Assembly: GCA_005773635.1 (NCBI GenBank)
Contig: SXHN01000059.1
Coordinates: 1-62,341 of the forward strand
From: Actinomycetota bacterium
GTDB lineage: Bacteria > Actinomycetota > Acidimicrobiia > IMCC26256 > PALSA-610
DNA: 62,341 nucleotides
Direction: 5' to 3'
The notes below the pieces were generated by a model. It was not told where the DNA came from, ran no database searches, and saw only the letters and a list, made by a program, of their open reading frames with translations. Positions 37,178 through 51,198 of the stretch are shown here, piece by piece; position 1 is the stretch's first letter; the number at the start of each line of letters is the position of its first letter. A program made the position numbers and the translations under genes.

Positions 37178-38755
37178 GTGGTGCATGAAGCGCAATGTCC
37201 ATGCTGCGGCGCTGATGGTCACCGTCTCGAAACTCCGGCACCGGATCGTGTCGAAGGCTGGGAACCGACGATCGCGAGTTTGGGGATTGGTCGGCGCCAC
37301 TTGATCCGCGCGGGCGCAGGCCTGGTTGTTGGCGGAGGCGCGATCGCATCGCTGCACCGCATGGGGTTGAGCGCCGCGTCGGCTGCTCCAAAGTACAACC
37401 TCACCTGGCCGGCTCCCGCGATCATCGCTCGATCAACGTGGGGCGCGAAAGAATCATTGCGAAGGGGACCGGCGACCTACGACGCAAAAGTCGAGAAATT
37501 GATTGTGCATCACACGGCTACGCCGAACGGATCGCAACATGCGCGTTCGACGCTGGTACAGAACTTGTATACCTACAACCTGTCACGGTCGTATATCGAT
37601 CTTGCATACAACTTTGTCATCGATGAAAACGGCCGCATCTATGAGGGGCGCTGGGCAGCCGACTATCGCGCCGGAGTCGTTCACACCGGGGAAAATTCGA
37701 AAGGTCACCAGGTACGGGGCGCGCACGCGTTATATCACAATGACCGCACCATCGGGATTGCCCTGCTCGGCACATACAGTTCTGTGACTCCATCTCCTGC
37801 AATGGTGAACGCGCTCGTCGAAGTGTTGGCATGGAAGTGCGCTCGGTGGGGGATTGATCCGACGGGACGGTCGAGCTACGCGGACTCACGAGGAGCTCGT
37901 ACGGTTCTCAACAACATTTCCGGACATCGTGACGTCCGCCAGACGTTGTGTCCCGGTGATGCGACTCGTGCCATTATGCCATCGATCCGCGATCGGGTCG
38001 AGAAGCGTTTGAAAGCCCCTCAGCAGGCGTATTGGGTGATTGCCAACGACGGAAGGATGTTCGCGAATGGAAGCGCGCCCAAAATCCCCGCAGTAAATCT
38101 GACGGGTGGGGTGGTTGACGCGGTCAGTCCGCAGGGCCGCGCCGGTATGTGGCTGTTGGCCGCGAATGGGCGCGTTGCTGCTGTGGCGACGGCTCGGCAT
38201 TACGGCGATGCAGCAAAACTGAATCTCAAACGACCAACGGTGGCTATGGCCTCAACCGAAACTGGCAGCGGCTACTTCCTCGTCGCTTCCGATGGTGGCG
38301 TGTTTACGTTTGGTGATGCGCAGTTTCGTGGCTCGATGGGCGGCAAGAAAATTAATGCCGCGATGACCGCGATTGCTGTGACTCCGACCGGAAACGGTTA
38401 TTGGATGTTGGCGCGCGATGGTGGCGTGTTTACCTTCGGCGACGCCCAATTCTCGGGCTCCGCATGGCCTTGCCCGTCATCAAATCCTGCGGTCGGACTG
38501 CTAGCTACGCGAAGTGGCAAGGGATACTGGATCGTGCAAGGCAATGGTCGCCTCACTGCGTTCGGTGATGCAACTCCGACGAAATTTGTGCTGGCACCGA
38601 AGGCACCCATCGTGTCGCTTCGTCGAGGGGCGGGTGGGTTGACAGGCCTTGCACGTGATGGTTCGTTTGTGCGCACACCTTCTGCCCCAGCACTCCCGTC
38701 GATCACCAAGCGACTAAACGGGTTGTCGGCAGTTGCAGTGCTCGGAACCGTCTAA
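37178..38755 (+). CDS. Exported PGRP/amidase_2-type peptidoglycan amidase with C-terminal six-fold repeat domain
   Basis: 525 aa. N-terminus has a CPCC motif (Cys7, Cys9, Cys10), a twin-arginine-like GRRHLIRAG (38-46) and a hydrophobic helix. The amidase domain (about 80-275) starts ARSTWGAKESLRRGP; zinc ligands are HHTA (111-112), SGHRD and LCPG, and it should cleave the N-acetylmuramoyl-L-alanine bond. The last ~240 residues are about six repeats of a ~40-45 residue unit (GSGYFLVASDGGVFTFGDAQF being the clearest). GTG 37178 or 37181; GAGGTGA upstream. Sits beside the glycan genes and may process the wall they decorate. Confidence 0.88.
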   Translation: MVHEAQCPCCGADGHRLETPAPDRVEGWEPTIASLGIGRRHLIRAGAGLVVGGGAIASLHRMGLSAASAAPKYNLTWPAPAIIARSTWGAKESLRRGPATYDAKVEKLIVHHTATPNGSQHARSTLVQNLYTYNLSRSYIDLAYNFVIDENGRIYEGRWAADYRAGVVHTGENSKGHQVRGAHALYHNDRTIGIALLGTYSSVTPSPAMVNALVEVLAWKCARWGIDPTGRSSYADSRGARTVLNNISGHRDVRQTLCPGDATRAIMPSIRDRVEKRLKAPQQAYWVIANDGRMFANGSAPKIPAVNLTGGVVDAVSPQGRAGMWLLAANGRVAAVATARHYGDAAKLNLKRPTVAMASTETGSGYFLVASDGGVFTFGDAQFRGSMGGKKINAAMTAIAVTPTGNGYWMLARDGGVFTFGDAQFSGSAWPCPSSNPAVGLLATRSGKGYWIVQGNGRLTAFGDATPTKFVLAPKAPIVSLRRGAGGLTGLARDGSFVRTPSAPALPSITKRLNGLSAVAVLGTV

Positions 38756-40320: not shown

Positions 40321-40388
40321 TTGGCGTTTTCCCCGCTTGAGCTGCTTGCCAGGGACCCGGGTAGGGAACCGTCTGAAAGGTGAGTTCG

Positions 40389-41795
40389 ATGGCTGAAGAC
40401 TTTGATCTCGTCGTGGTTGGAGGCGGCCCAGGGGGCTACGCAGCCGCGCTGTACGGATCTGCGGCTGGGCTGAAGGTGGCGCTCGTCGAAGAGCAGCGGA
40501 TTGGCGGGACCTGTCTCAACCGAGGCTGTATCCCAGCCAAAGAGTTGCTTGAGACCGCCACTGTCGCTCGAACCGTCCGTGAGGCCGCGGAATTCGGTAT
40601 CGAGATTGCTGGGGGGTCGTCGCCGACTGTCAATTTGGCGACGAGCCAAACGCGTAAGGAGGCGGTGATTGATCGCCTCGTCGGTGGTCTTGAATCGCTG
40701 CTCAAAGGCCGCAAGATCACTGTCGTGGCAGGCACAGGAAGGCTCGCCGACGGTGCGGGACGTTTGGTGCGGGTGTCGGATGGCACTGAACTTCGTGGGA
40801 AGTTCGTCGTGCTCGCAATGGGTTCCGTGCCTCGCTCGCTCGCAGTGCCCGGTTTCGACTACGACGGGCAACGGGTGTTGTCGTCGGATCATGTACTCAA
40901 TATTGCAGCGGTGCCTCAGCGTGTGGTTGTGGTTGGCGGCGGCGCAATCGGGTGCGAGTTCGCTTCGTTTTTGCGTGATGTTGGGTCGGAGGTAACCATC
41001 CTCGAAGCGCTCCCACAGTTACTGACGGGAGTCGACACCCAAGTGGCGCAGGTCGTGAGTCGCGCGTTCCAAAAGCGCGGCATTGAATCCGAGGTCGGCA
41101 TCACGCTGCAGGGCGCCGATGTGAGCGCCGACGGAGTGACCGTGCGGTACGAAGGAAAAAACGGTGCGGCGGCAATCAACGCGGATTACGTAATTGTGAG
41201 CGTAGGTCGTCGGCCGCGCAGCGAGGGCGCTGGGTTGCTCGAAGCCGGGATCGCAATCGATGAACGAGGCTTCGTGCCCGTCGATTCGATGATGCGCACG
41301 TCGATTGCAGGCGTCTATGCGGTCGGGGATTTGGTAAATACCCCACAATTAGCCCACGTCGCGTTTGCCGAGGCGATTGTGGCGGTCAAGGACATGCTGG
41401 GAGAGCTGCCCGCGCCTATCGATTACGCCAAAGTTCCTTGGGGTATCTACTGTCATCCGGAAGTTGCATTTTGTGGGCTCACCGAAGCCAAAGCGAAAGA
41501 ACTTGGCTACAACGTTGAGACGTCAGTACACCGATTTCTTGGCAACGGCCGCGCCATCATTATTGGCGACACCGACGGGCTCGTGAAGATCGTCGCGGAC
41601 GCAGACAGTGGCGTGATTCTTGGGGTGCACATTTGTGGGCCATGGGCGACAGAACTGATCGCGGAGGGGTATCTCTCGGTGAACTGGGAGGCGACCGCCG
41701 AAGATCTTGGAGCCTTGATTCATGCCCATCCAACGCTGTCTGAGTTGTTTGGCGAGTCGGCGCTGGCGCTGACTGGCCGGTCATTGCACGGTTGA
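40389..41795 (+). CDS. lpdA: Dihydrolipoamide dehydrogenase (E3)
   Basis: FAD/NAD flavoprotein that re-oxidises the dihydrolipoyl group on the E2 subunit; 468 aa. FAD-binding VVVGGGPGGYAAAL (8-21), redox pair GGTCLNRGCIPAK (Cys42, Cys47), NAD-binding VVVVGGGAIGCEFA, YAVGDLVNTPQLAH and catalytic HAHPTLSE at 445-452 near the C-terminus. ATG 40389 has AAGGTGAG just upstream; the in-frame GTG at 40380 lies inside that site. First of three genes for lipoate chemistry (E3, E2, LipB-LipA). Confidence 0.94.
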   Translation: MAEDFDLVVVGGGPGGYAAALYGSAAGLKVALVEEQRIGGTCLNRGCIPAKELLETATVARTVREAAEFGIEIAGGSSPTVNLATSQTRKEAVIDRLVGGLESLLKGRKITVVAGTGRLADGAGRLVRVSDGTELRGKFVVLAMGSVPRSLAVPGFDYDGQRVLSSDHVLNIAAVPQRVVVVGGGAIGCEFASFLRDVGSEVTILEALPQLLTGVDTQVAQVVSRAFQKRGIESEVGITLQGADVSADGVTVRYEGKNGAAAINADYVIVSVGRRPRSEGAGLLEAGIAIDERGFVPVDSMMRTSIAGVYAVGDLVNTPQLAHVAFAEAIVAVKDMLGELPAPIDYAKVPWGIYCHPEVAFCGLTEAKAKELGYNVETSVHRFLGNGRAIIIGDTDGLVKIVADADSGVILGVHICGPWATELIAEGYLSVNWEATAEDLGALIHAHPTLSELFGESALALTGRSLHG

Positions 41796-41814: not shown

Positions 41815-43170
41815 ATGGACGTCATCATGCCGCAACTCGGTGAGACGGTTACCGAGGGAACGATTACTCGATGGTTCAAACAAGTCGGAGAACCGATCGC
41901 GGTAGATGAGCCGTTGTTCGAAGTATCAACCGACAAAGTCGACTCTGAAGTGCCGTCGCCCGCCGGCGGCGTGTTGACCGAAATTCTTGTCGCGGAAGGA
42001 GAAACCGTTGACGTCGGTACGCGACTTGCGGTGATCGGCGATGCCGGCGCCGCGCCGGTTGCTGCCCCACAGTCGCCAGCGATCCCGGAACCTGTGCCCG
42101 CAGAGGCTGAAGTCGCGACCCCAGCGCCTGCTGCGCCGCCGCAGCCCGCACCGGCCCCGAACCCTGCACCGGCGCCTGTTCCCGCAGTTTCCGTTCCCGG
42201 TTCAGCGCTGCCGCTTGGTGTTGTTGCATCGCCCCTGGTGCGCGGACTGATTTCGCAGTACGGTTTGGACGGCGATGCGATGATCGGCACAGGAGTCGGT
42301 GGTCGCATCACCAGGAATGATGTGCTCGCTGCGGCGCGGTTGCGCGGGGCCGGTGCACCGGCATCCGTGCCGGGTGCGCCCGCTTCCGCGGCAGCTGCGC
42401 CGCAGCTCTCTACCTCTAGCTCCACTGGATCGTCTCGGGTGACCGCGTCAGGTGTAGGCGATCTCGTCGTTCCCTTCGACAACATTCGTCGACGTACTGC
42501 TGAACACATGGTTCGCAGCAAGGCAACCAGCGCTCATGTGTATACGTCGGTCGAAGTCGATTTTGAACCGATCGAACGCGTGCGTCGCGGTCTCGGGTCC
42601 GCATTCAAAGTCGATGAGGGTTTTTCACTGACCTACCTGCCATTCATTTGCCGTGCCCTGAGCGAAGTGATTCATGACTATCCCCACGTCAACGCGAGTG
42701 TCGACGGCGACGCGCTTATCGTCCATCGTGACGTGCACTTGGGAATTGCTGTCGACCTAGATTTCAAAGGTTTGGTGGCTCCGAACATCCGCTCGGCTGA
42801 TGGCAAGCGCCTGCGCCTCATCGCTCGTGAGATACGTGACCTTGCGTCGCGGGCGAAGACGAAACAATTAGGCCCCGACGAGGTGCTCGGCGGTACTTTC
42901 ACGATTACGAACATGGGAACGTTTGGCACTGCAATGACGTTGCCCATCATCAATCAACCACAGGTGGCGATTCTTGCCGCCGACGGCGTGCGCAAGAAGC
43001 CCGTCGTGGTGGAAGGACCCGATGGCGAAGATTCGATTGCGATCCATCACGTCGGACTGATTTCGTTGGCGTGGGATCATCGGGCCTTTGATGGCGCGTA
43101 CGCCGCGGCGTTCCTGCGTGACCTGAGAATCGTCCTCGAAACTCACGACTGGATCTCCGAGCTCGCCTAG
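41815..43170 (+). CDS. Dihydrolipoamide acyltransferase (E2) of a 2-oxoacid dehydrogenase
   Basis: 451 aa with three domains: lipoyl domain (1-76; lipoyl Lys41 in STDKVDSEV), Ala/Pro-rich swinging linker (80-130), a peripheral subunit-binding domain (138-174, VRGLISQYGLDGDAMIGTGVGG) and the catalytic acyltransferase with DHRAFDG (421-427). It accepts an acyl group from an E1. Which complex (pyruvate, 2-oxoglutarate or branched-chain) is not set; E1 genes are not adjacent. AAGGGA 9 nt before the ATG. Followed by lipB-lipA, which would lipoylate Lys41. Confidence 0.93.
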   Translation: MDVIMPQLGETVTEGTITRWFKQVGEPIAVDEPLFEVSTDKVDSEVPSPAGGVLTEILVAEGETVDVGTRLAVIGDAGAAPVAAPQSPAIPEPVPAEAEVATPAPAAPPQPAPAPNPAPAPVPAVSVPGSALPLGVVASPLVRGLISQYGLDGDAMIGTGVGGRITRNDVLAAARLRGAGAPASVPGAPASAAAAPQLSTSSSTGSSRVTASGVGDLVVPFDNIRRRTAEHMVRSKATSAHVYTSVEVDFEPIERVRRGLGSAFKVDEGFSLTYLPFICRALSEVIHDYPHVNASVDGDALIVHRDVHLGIAVDLDFKGLVAPNIRSADGKRLRLIAREIRDLASRAKTKQLGPDEVLGGTFTITNMGTFGTAMTLPIINQPQVAILAADGVRKKPVVVEGPDGEDSIAIHHVGLISLAWDHRAFDGAYAAAFLRDLRIVLETHDWISELA

Positions 43171-43282
43171 GCAGCCTTTCTCGCGCCGCAACGCCCGTTT
43201 AGGTGGTGTTTCGAACGTGGAAAGGGAAAATGGAGTCGGGAGAGTCGAAGCGGGGCAGGGTGGTTGCGCGACACTTGGGCGT

Positions 43283-44917
43283 ATGGATCGACTGCGGGTG
43301 CGATGGCTGGGCAAGGTGCCGTACACCGATGCCGACCAGCTCCAGCGGTCGTTACATCAGCATGCTGTCGACGACTATCTGTTGCTCCTCGAACATCCGC
43401 ACGTGTACACGCTCGGATCTGCGGCGAAATCTGAACATGTGCTCATCGACCCGGTTCGTGTCGGTGCAGAATTAGTGCATGTAGATCGTGGCGGCGACGT
43501 GACCTACCACGGACCCGGCCAGCTTGTGGGCTATCCGATTGTGTCACTGGGCGAGTGGCAAGCCGGGCAGCGCGACGTCGTCGCGTACGTTCGCAAGATT
43601 GAAAGCGTACTTGTGAGTGCCTTGCGCGAGTTCGGTATTGAGGCCGGGCGTAGTGATGGATACACAGGCGTTTGGGTCGGTGACGAAAAAATTGCGGCTA
43701 TCGGTGTGCGCGTCGCTCGCGGCCGGACGCGTCATGGGTTCGCGCTCAATGTCGATCCCGATCTTGAGATGTTTGAGCACATTGTTCCCTGTGGAATTCA
43801 CGACCGTGGCGTCACCTCTGTCGCGGCGGTGCTTGGGGATGCAGCACCATCAATGGAGACGGTCGTCGATGCCATTGTGCGCGCCTTCGAACGTGAATTC
43901 GAAGCGCGCGACGTCGACCGTGCCGACGTGGTGTGGCGAAATAGTTTGGACGATCTCAGTCAATTCTCACGATCTCATCTGGAAGGTGCGAGCGCACCCG
44001 TGCGGCTGATCGGGCGGCTTGCGCAGGCCGGAGTTGATGGGATTGCAAGCGATGTCAGCGCGACACGCCCAGATTGGATGCGCGTGAAAGCGAACATGGG
44101 CCCCGAGTTCGTGGCCCTCAAGAAACGCGTCCGCGATGCTGGGCTCAATACGGTGTGCGAAGAAGCCGGATGCCCGAACATCTACGAGTGTTGGTCGCAA
44201 GGCACAGCAACTTTCATGATTCTTGGCGAGCGGTGCACGCGGGCGTGCGGATTTTGTCTCGTCGATACTCGCAAACCGGAACCAGTCGACGCTGACGAAC
44301 CGAGGCGGGTTGCGGAGTCGGTGTTGCAGATGGGTCTGGAACATGTCGTGATTACGTGCGTCGCCCGAGATGATTTGGACGACGGCGGGAGTGCGATATT
44401 CGCAGCGACCGTCCGAGCGATTCGAGCGGTCAGTCCGATGACACGGATTGAATTGTTGATTTCTGATTGTCAGGGAAAGCCGAGTTCGCTCGACACGATT
44501 TTCGATTCGATTCCTGATGTGTTGAATCACAATCTCGAAACGGTCGCACGGCTGCAACGGGCGGCTCGCCCGAGTGCGAATTACGCCCGGTCGCTTGCGG
44601 TACTCGGTCGAGCTAAGGCGCGCGGGTTGACCACGAAGTCCGGCATAATTGTGGGGATGGGCGAGACCGATGACGAGGTGCGTCAAGCGGTGACGGACGT
44701 ACGCAACGTAGGCGTCGATATTCTGACTATCGGTCAGTATCTTCGCCCGACGAAACATCACCTCCCAGTTGTGCGCTGGTGGGCTCCAGACGAGTTTGTG
44801 CGAATCGGAGAATTTGCTGAGTCGTTGGGATTCGCCCACGTCGAATCGGGGCCGCTGGTTCGATCGAGTTATCACGCTCGCGACGGTGCTGAGCGTGCCG
44901 CCGCCAACGTTCGATAG
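43283..44917 (+). CDS. LipB-LipA fusion: octanoyltransferase plus lipoyl synthase
   Basis: One continuous 544-aa frame. N-half (1-225) is LipB: RGGDVTYHGPGQLVGYPI (69-86), Lys136 (GDEKIAAIGVRV) and Cys170 (IVPCGIHDRGVTS), the Lys/Cys catalytic pair. C-half (about 260-544) is LipA: auxiliary cluster cysteines Cys292, Cys297, Cys303, radical-SAM CxxxCxxC Cys318, Cys322, Cys325 and terminal RSSY (527-530). So octanoyl transfer and sulfur insertion would act in one chain on E2. Start ATG 43283 begins LipB; a longer frame from 43217 adds 22 residues and is less likely. Both halves are normally separate genes. Confidence 0.92.
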   Translation: MDRLRVRWLGKVPYTDADQLQRSLHQHAVDDYLLLLEHPHVYTLGSAAKSEHVLIDPVRVGAELVHVDRGGDVTYHGPGQLVGYPIVSLGEWQAGQRDVVAYVRKIESVLVSALREFGIEAGRSDGYTGVWVGDEKIAAIGVRVARGRTRHGFALNVDPDLEMFEHIVPCGIHDRGVTSVAAVLGDAAPSMETVVDAIVRAFEREFEARDVDRADVVWRNSLDDLSQFSRSHLEGASAPVRLIGRLAQAGVDGIASDVSATRPDWMRVKANMGPEFVALKKRVRDAGLNTVCEEAGCPNIYECWSQGTATFMILGERCTRACGFCLVDTRKPEPVDADEPRRVAESVLQMGLEHVVITCVARDDLDDGGSAIFAATVRAIRAVSPMTRIELLISDCQGKPSSLDTIFDSIPDVLNHNLETVARLQRAARPSANYARSLAVLGRAKARGLTTKSGIIVGMGETDDEVRQAVTDVRNVGVDILTIGQYLRPTKHHLPVVRWWAPDEFVRIGEFAESLGFAHVESGPLVRSSYHARDGAERAAANVR

Positions 44918-46703
44918 CGTTTCGTTGAACAAGGCTTTGCGCACCGCGATACACGATTGGATTGAGCGTCGAGCAATGACGGTTGCCTACGTCGTTGTGG
45001 TGGCTCCGGTGCTCGGACAGATGTTTCGCAAGTTTCGGTCGCCTTGGCGCCCCACTGGCGACGATGCGATTTTTGCGATTAACGCGCACGATGTGTTTTC
45101 GTGGCGTCCGCCCTTGTTGGGAACCTATTCCGTGGTAGCCCGCGTAGGAAATGAAACACCTCCGCTCGTGTATCACCTTGGACCAATGGTTTCGTGGGTC
45201 CTTGCGATTCCCGAACGATTCTTTGGGCAGCGACTAGGTGTTGCGTACGGCGCCGCGATTGTCAACACTGCGATGCTGTTCGCTGCGGTATGGGTGGTGC
45301 GGCGCGTGTTCGATGAGCGAGCGGCACTCGTCGCAGCGATTGCCATCGCCTTGATGGCGTGGTCTGTGGGGCATTCCACGTTGGCTGAACCGTGGAATCC
45401 GTACATAGGCTTATGGGCGCTTCCTCTCATCTGCGCGCTGGCGTGCGGTGTCGCGGTCGGAGTTCGTTGGGCGCTCGCATGGCTGGTCGTCGTCGCGAGT
45501 TTTGCTGTTCAAGCTCACTATTTGTATCTCGCCATTGCTGCTCTCGTGGCGCTGGCTTGCATAGTTGTCGCGTTGACTCGGACCCGGGTGGCTCCAACTG
45601 AACGGCTCAGTGTTGGGTCGCTGCGCTGGACATTGATTGCATTGGTGGTCTGTTGGACGCCCACGCTGCTGCAACAGATGTTCGGCGATCCCGGAAATCT
45701 TTTGAGCTGGTTTCGGGCGACGACGCGTGCGACTGAGTCGAAGAGTGGCTTCCTCGACTTTTCGTTTCGCTACGTCGTGAACTCTTTCGCGGCACCCGGG
45801 CTGGCAGTTCGAGGGCCATTGAATCCTCTCGAACAACTAGATCTCACCTACTCGCCTTCCACCTTCGGGTGGGTGAGCGCAGGGGCGGCCGCGGCGTTCG
45901 TTGTGTTTATGGCCGTGTACTTCCGGTCGTCGCGACCCAGTTTGGCTGCGTTCGCAACGGTGACGGTTGTAGTAGCGATCGCGACGACGTTCACGCTGAG
46001 CCAACTGCCTGCGTCGGTTCTTGCGTTCCCGTACTACCGAATCGTGATGTTGTGGTTTGCGTCGACGCTGCTGTGGGCCTGCGTTGTGAGCGGCGCGTTT
46101 TGCCTAGCGAATTCTGTGCGGAAGGTTCCTTCGTCGGTTTTGGTGTCGGAGGTTGTGTCGAAGCCACGCTCGCTGAGATCGGGGTTTGCGGGCGCACTGA
46201 CGCCAACGTTGATTGCCGTCGCGTTGGCAGTTGCGGTGTTGGCTGTGGTGTCGACGAGCCCCGAAGGCCCGGTTGATCGGATCGGTGCAGAAGCAACCGG
46301 CGTCATGAGTGACCAAGGGCGGCGACTCCTCGACCCCGGCAGGCGATACGAAGTGGTTGGCAGCGGAGCCCGAGGTGTATTTGCTGCCTACGGAGTCTTT
46401 CGCGACTTACATAACGCGGGTTTCGACGTGTACGTACCGAACGACGAGGTGCAGTTGCGGCGAAATTACGCGGTTGGTTCGCGAGATGTCGACACGCTGA
46501 TTGTTCACAGCGGCGCCGAAGCTCTGCCCGCAAACGCCATACTGATCGCCAGCTTTGATGGTCGAAGCCCAGCTGATCTTCGCCGCTATGAACTCCTAAG
46601 CCGGGGTGCACTGAATGGTGATTCGTCGGCGGCTACGGCATTCGAGCAAGAACGCTTTGGGATCGAGCAATTGCAATTCCGGATGTACGTGCTTAAGAAG
46701 TAG
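44895..46703 (+). CDS. Multi-pass membrane protein, GT-C (PMT/ArnT-like) candidate
   Basis: About 602 aa with 11-13 hydrophobic helices. The first extracellular loop reads SPWRPTGDDAIFAINAHDVF, an acidic pair as in GT-C glycosyltransferases, and HLGPMVSWVLAIPERF follows. The C-terminal 130 residues form a soluble domain (EVVGSGARGVFAAYGVFRDL). Start not certain: GTG 44886, GTG 44895, TTG 44925 or ATG 44976 all fit just behind lipB-lipA. A lipid-sugar-dependent glycosyltransferase is inferred; the donor and target are unknown. Confidence 0.72.
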   Translation: MPPPTFDSVSLNKALRTAIHDWIERRAMTVAYVVVVAPVLGQMFRKFRSPWRPTGDDAIFAINAHDVFSWRPPLLGTYSVVARVGNETPPLVYHLGPMVSWVLAIPERFFGQRLGVAYGAAIVNTAMLFAAVWVVRRVFDERAALVAAIAIALMAWSVGHSTLAEPWNPYIGLWALPLICALACGVAVGVRWALAWLVVVASFAVQAHYLYLAIAALVALACIVVALTRTRVAPTERLSVGSLRWTLIALVVCWTPTLLQQMFGDPGNLLSWFRATTRATESKSGFLDFSFRYVVNSFAAPGLAVRGPLNPLEQLDLTYSPSTFGWVSAGAAAAFVVFMAVYFRSSRPSLAAFATVTVVVAIATTFTLSQLPASVLAFPYYRIVMLWFASTLLWACVVSGAFCLANSVRKVPSSVLVSEVVSKPRSLRSGFAGALTPTLIAVALAVAVLAVVSTSPEGPVDRIGAEATGVMSDQGRRLLDPGRRYEVVGSGARGVFAAYGVFRDLHNAGFDVYVPNDEVQLRRNYAVGSRDVDTLIVHSGAEALPANAILIASFDGRSPADLRRYELLSRGALNGDSSAATAFEQERFGIEQLQFRMYVLKK

Positions 46704-48887: not shown

Positions 48888-49658
48888 ATGAAACTCGATC
48901 TTGCGACGTTTTTGTTGCAATGGGCTGCTGGCGGTTTGGCATTTTTGTTTTTCACGACTCGTCGGCGTGAACTCGGCATTGGCTACGGCTGGCTCTTGCG
49001 ATCAACTTTCGGCCTAATCGCCGCGGGTGCCGCGTTCGCGTTTGCCTCGCATGAGTCTCCAAGCGTTGGTGACCGAATCGCGACCGTAGCGAGCGTGCTC
49101 GTCGTCGCCGCTGCACTTGTTGCATTGTGGCGATCGATAGCAACACGAAGCGGCGGCGTCACTGCGTTCGACCCGCGCTGGGATGCGGTCGCGCCAGCGC
49201 TTGGCATCCTGGGCCTCTTCGGCGCCGCCGAGATTGCCGGTGGCGGATATGGGCTGGCGCTCGCCCGGCTCGTGATCGGAGCGCTGTTTCTCGGTGCCGT
49301 GAGCGATGCCATGTTGCTGGGGCACTGGTATTTGGTGCAGCCCGGTTTACGTCGGAACCCGTTGCAGGATCTCGTGCGGGTGACTGGGTGGATCTGGCCA
49401 CTCGAAGTGGCGGTGCTGTTGATCCCCACGGGGATGGTGTCGGTGATCAACGGCACGATCGACGACAGTTACAACGGGCTGTTGGGTTGGGTTTGGATCG
49501 CGTGCGCAGTTTTCACCATCGGGTTGGTATGGGTCACGACGATTGCACTGAAGGAGCGCTATTACTCGGCCGTGATGTCGGCCACGGGCCTGCTGTATTT
49601 GGCGATTCTCACCGCGTTCGGCACGGATCTAATCGCACGCGCGGTATTGGCTCCTTGA
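48888..49658 (+). CDS. Seven-helix membrane protein of unknown function
   Basis: 256 aa, seven hydrophobic helices, no known motif. GAVSDAMLLGHWYLVQPGLRRNPL holds a conserved-looking His-Trp-Tyr; LKERYYSAVMSATGLLYLAILTAFG ends it. Not recognised by name; a heme/quinone protein or carrier would be guesses. ATG 48888 is 7 nt after the peptidase stop. Its last 50 bases overlap the 3' end of the convergent gene 49609-51198. Confidence 0.7.
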   Translation: MKLDLATFLLQWAAGGLAFLFFTTRRRELGIGYGWLLRSTFGLIAAGAAFAFASHESPSVGDRIATVASVLVVAAALVALWRSIATRSGGVTAFDPRWDAVAPALGILGLFGAAEIAGGGYGLALARLVIGALFLGAVSDAMLLGHWYLVQPGLRRNPLQDLVRVTGWIWPLEVAVLLIPTGMVSVINGTIDDSYNGLLGWVWIACAVFTIGLVWVTTIALKERYYSAVMSATGLLYLAILTAFGTDLIARAVLAP

Positions 49659-51198
49659 TCCGATACACCCAATAGTGTTCGTCGATCACGATTCCGCGAG
49701 TGAATGCGACTGCGAGCGGTAAGCCCGGCACCGGTTCATTCGTGACGAGGTATCGCGGTGATGCCGCCTCTCGTTGAGTTCGGATCTTCTTGAGTTCGAG
49801 GGCATCGGCCAGGCTCAGTGGTGGTCGTGTACGACGAGCATCCCAGATCGTAAATGAACCTTCGCGCGCTCCTTGTGGGTAGATGATCGCGCGTTCGAGG
49901 TACCCGGCGAGCGCCGAACCAACGAAGTCCGGACACGCCGCGATTATTGCGCCGCTACCGCCGTTACGTTGGAGCCATTCGGCAGTGGCCTGCGCGTCAG
50001 TAAAAGGACTGCGAAGATCGCTTGAGTACGCGCGTATGCCGACTCCAAGCTGCGCAATGAGTATGACTGAAAACAGGAGCGACCAACGGTGAAGAACTCG
50101 GACACTGCAGACGCCGTCACAAGATTCCGATGGGTTGTCCGGAGAAGCCATGCTGGGCTGGGCGCTTTCGCGTGTTGAGAACAACAGCCAATTTGCAGCG
50201 ACAAATGCGATCCATATTGTTCCGAAGTAGCGAGCCGCGTCGCTGTTGCCGAGCTTCAAGTACATGATCGCGACCGTGCCGCTGGTGGCGCAGAGCCAGA
50301 GTGCGAGTGCCCCCTGATGGGCGCGCCACAGAAGTGACACCGCGATCACGATGCCGATTGCGGCAATTGCGGCGAGACCTGTGTTGCCGTCGGCGATACT
50401 TGTGTTCCACCACGACTGCGTGAACTGCTGGAGTGGTAGGAAAGCTTTGAAAATTGCTGCGATCGCACCGGAGCCAAGGTGCGTGTCGAAGCGCAAATTC
50501 CACTCGCTGTATGCGCTCGTGCCGTCCGGGGGGCGCGCTTGTGCGTAGGCCACAACACAACCCACAACCGTGAGCGCTATTGCTGTGCGTACCTGGCTGG
50601 ATTTCGGCGTTTCACCGTTTGCTCGGACGTGCACCAAAATGCCGACCAACAACGCGATCGCTAAGGCAGCACCAAATGCGCTGGTGAGCGCGAGCATCCC
50701 AAGTGCAACGCCGAATGGAAGCCACCTGCGAACGGGTGTGATGCATGCCAATGCGATCATCGCTAGCAGCATGCCAAGCCCATAGCTGCGAGCGAGTATC
50801 CCGTATTCGTACAAGCCGAAGTATCCGAAGAGCAACAACGACCGCTGCATCCGAGAAAACGGGGATCTCCAGAGCACAATTGCTGCGGTCGCGACCGCGA
50901 TCGTCCACTGGAGGATTTGCAACATCCAAATGGACGACTGCAACTTTGCGAAGGGCCACAGGAAGGCGTACCAAAGAAAAGGATGGCCTTCGTGGCGAAG
51001 ATTCCGCACTAGCGCGGTGGGTGATGCGCTGACCCGCGCGATTGTCCAGGCTTGGAGTTCGTCGCGCCAAGGTTCGTGTGTCCACAAGCCGACGGCGACA
51101 ACTGCCGCGAAGATGCTCAGTGTGAGCCAGTTGCGCCGATGCTCACGTTGCGATGGCGCGTCCACAGGCTGCGACGCTACTTGACGGTCGCGTGGCAA
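49609..51198 (-). CDS. GT-C type membrane glycosyltransferase candidate
   Basis: About 529 aa with some ten helices. The first loop WTHEPWRDELQAWTIARVSA and later NLRHEGHPFLWY fit the acidic DE motif and EGHP of PMT/GT39-like proteins. The C-terminal soluble domain has one cysteine (IIAACPDF). Start TTG 51198 is uncertain. It runs on the same strand as metH, 20 nt beyond its stop. Its substrate is unknown; a second such gene lies at 44895. Confidence 0.75.
   Translation of the reverse strand: MPRDRQVASQPVDAPSQREHRRNWLTLSIFAAVVAVGLWTHEPWRDELQAWTIARVSASPTALVRNLRHEGHPFLWYAFLWPFAKLQSSIWMLQILQWTIAVATAAIVLWRSPFSRMQRSLLLFGYFGLYEYGILARSYGLGMLLAMIALACITPVRRWLPFGVALGMLALTSAFGAALAIALLVGILVHVRANGETPKSSQVRTAIALTVVGCVVAYAQARPPDGTSAYSEWNLRFDTHLGSGAIAAIFKAFLPLQQFTQSWWNTSIADGNTGLAAIAAIGIVIAVSLLWRAHQGALALWLCATSGTVAIMYLKLGNSDAARYFGTIWIAFVAANWLLFSTRESAQPSMASPDNPSESCDGVCSVRVLHRWSLLFSVILIAQLGVGIRAYSSDLRSPFTDAQATAEWLQRNGGSGAIIAACPDFVGSALAGYLERAIIYPQGAREGSFTIWDARRTRPPLSLADALELKKIRTQREAASPRYLVTNEPVPGLPLAVAFTRGIVIDEHYWVYRIKEPIPRVRLDPCRTR

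Follow-up and report, generated by a model that had tools for sequence, protein, structure and literature searches.

The window, as we call the whole stretch of 62,341 nucleotides analysed here, contains a gene, lipBA, in which a LipB octanoyltransferase and a LipA lipoyl synthase are joined in one reading frame of 544 codons. On the evidence of its sequence and that of its relatives, lipBA is a new arrangement of known parts, a real, ancient and class-wide LipB-LipA fusion of the Acidimicrobiia that is predicted to be bifunctional. Very probably it acts as an octanoyltransferase/lipoyl synthase that arose by one early fusion, with the tether serving stoichiometry and proximity. No LipB-LipA fusion is described in the open-access literature that we searched, and prior notice may exist in UniProt, in InterPro or in subscription papers; open-access literature on Acidimicrobiia with lipoyl synthase, and on channelling, likewise yielded nothing relevant. 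A broad study of the evolution of lipoate assembly (PMC10332631) mentions LplA/LplB fusions, and the words 'Acidimicrobiia' and 'bifunctional' are absent from its text.

Two enzymes in one reading frame

The original prediction held that LipB and LipA lie in one uninterrupted frame with both catalytic sets intact, and this is borne out: translation of the gene on the forward strand gives 544 residues with no stops, both halves exceed curated cut-offs, and a stop or frameshift between them was looked for and none was encountered, the frame being open throughout (Table 1). A GTG at 43217 provides an alternative start that would add 22 residues to the N terminus; however, in the closest relative (L005, 78% identical) only seven residues separate the upstream stop from the start of LipB, and the ATG at 43283 is therefore the likely start of lipBA. 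The Pfam domain LplA-B_cat is found at residues 19-203 (151 bits, cut-off 27) and Radical_SAM at residues 312-471 (66 bits, cut-off 29.5), and LIAS_N falls slightly below threshold (25.3 against 27). No accessory LplB or C-terminal ligase domain is present, as Pfam gives only these three domains. The N-terminal half matches the NCBIfam LipB model TIGR00214 with 169 bits (cut-off 83.55), and the solved LipB structures 2qhs and 1w66 are both its best solved relatives by sequence, over residues 4-212, and matches to its predicted fold, with Z scores of 31-32. The C-terminal half matches the LipA model TIGR00510 with 351.5 bits (cut-off 310.25); Mycobacterium tuberculosis LipA is its best solved relative by sequence over residues 260-537, and superimposes on it with a Z score of 42.2 and 1.8 A over 296 residues.

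Table 1. Features of the lipBA locus (positions in the window)
Feature	Position	Strand	Basis
lpd, dihydrolipoyl dehydrogenase (E3)	40380..41795	+	TIGR01350, 491.7 bits (cut-off 408.8)
E2 acyltransferase: N-terminal lipoyl domain (41821-42036), E3-binding and catalytic domains	41815..43170	+	
lipBA, 544-aa LipB-LipA fusion (stop included)	43283..44917	+	Single ORF, Pfam and NCBIfam domains
LipB (octanoyl-ACP:protein octanoyltransferase) half, residues 1-212	43283..43918	+	TIGR00214; match to 2qhs and 1w66
LipB catalytic Lys136 codon	43688..43690	+	Invariant in 100 fused proteins
LipB catalytic Cys170 codon	43790..43792	+	Invariant in 100 fused proteins
Linker, residues 213-258, of variable length in the family	43919..44056	+	
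Linker helix, residues 240-248 (RLIGRLAQA), where free actinobacterial LipA has its N-terminal GRKLLRLEVRNA	44000..44026	+	By eye
LipA (lipoyl synthase, radical SAM) half, residues 259-544 (start approximate)	44057..44914	+	TIGR00510; M. tuberculosis LipA
Auxiliary [4Fe-4S] cluster motif CX4CX5C, Cys292/297/303	44156..44191	+	
Radical-SAM cluster motif CX3CX2C, Cys318/322/325	44234..44257	+	
RSSY motif, residues 527-530	44861..44872	+	

Both LplA-B_cat and Radical_SAM are present in all 46 aligned members of the fusion family. Comparison of 100 unique fused proteins shows that Lys136, Cys170 and the six LipA cysteines, all at the positions predicted for them, do not vary at all, and Arg69 of the RGG loop and the glycines after it are also invariant; Ser529 of the RSSY motif, which corresponds to the serine ligand of the auxiliary cluster (for the role of this serine see PMC12246082), is retained in 99 of the 100. 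The region between the halves (residues 206-262) ranges from 26 to 173 residues among these proteins, with a median of 56.5, and varies in sequence too. Many linkers retain a PVRLLGRLAEAGV-like stretch at the place where free actinobacterial LipA starts with GRKLLRLEVRNA (compared by eye), consistent with a lipB stop that was simply lost while both proteins kept their ends.

Distribution and origin

Matches to the protein were found in 259 of the 268 good-quality genomes within a sample of 395 Acidimicrobiia genomes, and nearly all of the matches listed extend over roughly residues 4-540 in a single stop-free frame; because the same full-length frame recurs across the class, a chance open frame can be excluded. 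The records bearing it are labelled Acidimicrobiia, Acidimicrobiales, Candidatus Microthrix, Acidiferrimicrobium and Candidatus Actinomarina, and the single frame is also seen in an isolate, Acidiferrimicrobium (L064), and in genomes of the OCS155/Actinomarina clade (L074-L079). Wherever an examined Acidimicrobiia locus has a contig spanning both halves the two are fused, with the exception of a frameshifted copy, a lone LipB and an extra unfused pair. In the rest of the Actinomycetota the halves are separate, or give joined matches that contain stops; outside the Acidimicrobiia the separate lipB and lipA are often adjacent, the start of LipA homology lying a median of 123 nt beyond the lipB stop. 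The proposed clustering in the Acidimicrobiia thus holds, the fusion being class-wide there, with separate genes in other actinobacterial classes. Plasmid records gave only matches of less than 60% identity, the best of which join two pieces. The search covered the Actinomycetota and plasmid records, and independent fusions may thus exist in other phyla. We note that surveys of gene content that expect separate lipA and lipB genes will mis-score the whole class.

The exceptions are few. Genomes with two matches looked like candidates for split genes and were rejected as such, since the pieces share one open frame and are broken by linker differences; G212 was rejected likewise, as its first frame continues into the start of LipA (RRPEWMRVRARYDEGF) and is frameshifted just inside LipA. 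Genome G088 (1.8 Mb, 85% complete; locus L156, C15:6000-12000), from a member of the same taxonomic order, has a lone LipB and no LipA over the cut-off, possibly through loss of the LipA half or through missing sequence. Genome G052 carries the fusion together with separate, adjacent lipB and lipA genes on a 5-kb contig (L158, C83:1-5026), and this unfused pair may represent contamination or a second set. A metagenome-assembled contig labelled Bifidobacterium breve (L037) bears a fused gene of the Acidimicrobiia type, and its organism name is probably wrong.

Trees of the two halves, each built by a quick method, point to a common origin. In the LipA tree the fused proteins occupy one side of a branch with moderate support (SH-aLRT 88), and in the LipB tree they group together with the lone LipB of G088 as the sole intruder, the deep forks being weakly supported; as this LipB and the fused proteins belong to one class, the LipA half was apparently lost there at a later time. 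A single ancient fusion explains both trees most simply and is the reading we favour, with moderate support. It would have occurred once in an early ancestor of the Acidimicrobiia, where the stop separating adjacent lipB and lipA genes was probably lost in frame.

Gene neighbourhood and lipoyl acceptors

As predicted, lipBA directly follows genes for E3 and E2 on the same strand (Table 1), and the order E3-E2-lipBA is widely kept among the fused loci. Most loci with enough sequence have an E2 match directly upstream, in many cases overlapping lipBA or no more than 20 nt away from it, and E3 precedes E2; a homologue of the M24 peptidase of the window often lies 3′ of the fused gene. In five marine and Microthrix loci (L055, L059, L061, L062 and L067) E3 adjoins lipBA upstream with no E2 match between them. 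A scan for promoters and terminators gave nothing above chance worth using. Elsewhere in the window, positions 37178-38755 (+) encode an N-acetylmuramoyl-L-alanine amidase (Amidase_2) whose N terminus may be twin-arginine-like and whose C-terminal half is repeat-like, and two large, apparently membrane-spanning proteins with no Pfam match are encoded at 44769-46703 (+) and 49609-51198 (-).

The source genome (3.56 Mb in 125 contigs, 95% complete) was also expected to lack free lipA and lipB genes, and within it the fused gene is the sole LipB and LipA found: LplA-B_cat matches nothing else, no other LipA exceeds the cut-off, and the one further match to the LipA family scores 33 bits (cut-off 203) and probably represents a different radical-SAM protein. 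Ten single-contig Acidimicrobiia genomes likewise have no LipA over the family cut-off apart from the fused gene; most of them have an additional, weaker LplA-B_cat match, which may be a ligase of another kind. The complete genome G014 has four LplA-B_cat genes beyond the fusion (C1 1024011, 1089676, 1092084 and 1310008), two of them strong (117-118 bits). Since the source genome also encodes GcvH, on contig C28, and several further biotin/lipoyl-type domains on other contigs, the product of lipBA probably serves more than one acceptor rather than E2 alone.

Proposed function and relation to known systems

In the assembly of lipoate, an essential cofactor, LipB and then LipA act on one protein-bound octanoyl group. 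In the fused protein, the LipB half would take octanoyl from octanoyl-ACP onto Cys170 and, with Lys136, transfer it to the lipoyl-domain lysine, and the radical-SAM LipA half of the same chain would then insert two sulfurs, at C6 and C8, using the auxiliary cluster. From the known families we infer both activities and the order of the steps; the gene would be transcribed and translated as one chain, and the tether is expected to fix a 1:1 stoichiometry and to keep consecutive enzymes close, with a presumed benefit from proximity.

It is possible, if not the reading we favour, that the fusion is neutral, arising by chance loss of a stop in an ancestor and inherited ever since without any kinetic advantage over two separate proteins. 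The halves were probably already adjacent and in the right order, and the linker drifts in both length and sequence. However, splitting the gene again by a new stop and start should be easy, yet only one lone LipB was seen among the examined loci.

A second proposal goes further than the proximity tether and extends it without replacing it, namely that the halves are docked in a fixed arrangement and hand the octanoyl-lipoyl domain directly between their active sites, never releasing it. AlphaFold models of the window protein (using 46 fused sequences; pLDDT 88.9, pTM 0.91) and of an Actinomarina member 48% identical to it (34 sequences; pLDDT 89.7, pTM 0.89) both give a high pTM for a protein whose two domains are joined by a variable linker, which suggests a defined mutual orientation of LipB and LipA, a lead taken from the scores rather than from PAE or coordinates. 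For each of the two models, the alignment with LplA-type ligases covers LipB and continues into the LipA half as far as residue 446 or so; judged by where the aligned ranges end, this hints that the docking is the same in the two. The fusion is also kept across the class, even in genomes of about 1 Mb. Against this, the linker ranges so widely in length and is modelled with low confidence at residues 221-240 (pLDDT about 50 in the window model), and several acceptors probably have to be served. Positions conserved in fused but not in separate proteins were considered as a sign of an interface and dropped; they lie mostly in the core or in active-site motifs and would need coordinates to be interpreted. 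Channelling of octanoyl-E2, suggested with the original prediction, is thus unproven, with the pTM values leaving docking possible, and we regard it as doubtful; that lipBA is a rigidly docked two-site enzyme, at which one lipoyl domain, once bound, remains through octanoylation and the sulfuration that follows, and whose geometry shows how free LipB and LipA cooperate, seems unlikely.

Two further alternatives carry little weight. Free LipA could also be made from the same frame by internal initiation or proteolysis, and 15 of 111 loci do have an in-frame start in the linker with a 5-nt Shine-Dalgarno-like match, but such starts occur at scattered positions and are absent from the other 96 loci and from the linker of the window, making this very improbable. 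Assembly error joining two genes might be imagined because most of the relatives are metagenome-assembled, but the chance is negligible: about 100 distinct proteins share the fusion, which is found in single-contig genomes and also in an isolate. Returning to the tethered bifunctional enzyme, a natural fusion found across soil and marine Acidimicrobiia offers a single stable protein in which to measure octanoyl hand-over and to solve a structure.

Comparison with known systems shows where lipBA departs from them. The nearest named fusion, and the only one that NCBIfam models, is LplA_LipA_fuse (NF053790, bifunctional lipoate--protein ligase/lipoyl synthase), which similarly has an attachment enzyme fused ahead of LipA; its attachment half, however, is named as an LplA-type ligase whereas that of lipBA is LipB, and the model scores only 354.7 bits against the window protein, below its cut-off of 800 and over the LipA part only. 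The lipB-lipA pairs of Actinomycetia such as Dietzia, Rhodococcus and Streptomyces have the same gene order and homologous halves, but in two frames with a stop and a start between them where lipBA has one. Residues 1-212 are those of an ordinary LipB (TIGR00214; 1w66, 2qhs), sharing its fold, Lys/Cys dyad and RGG loop, and differ from free LipB in forming the N-terminal half of a larger protein. The remainder has the fold of LipA (TIGR00510; 5exk, M. tuberculosis; Z 42), its two cluster motifs and its RSSY end, and differs from free LipA in that its N terminus is joined to LipB.
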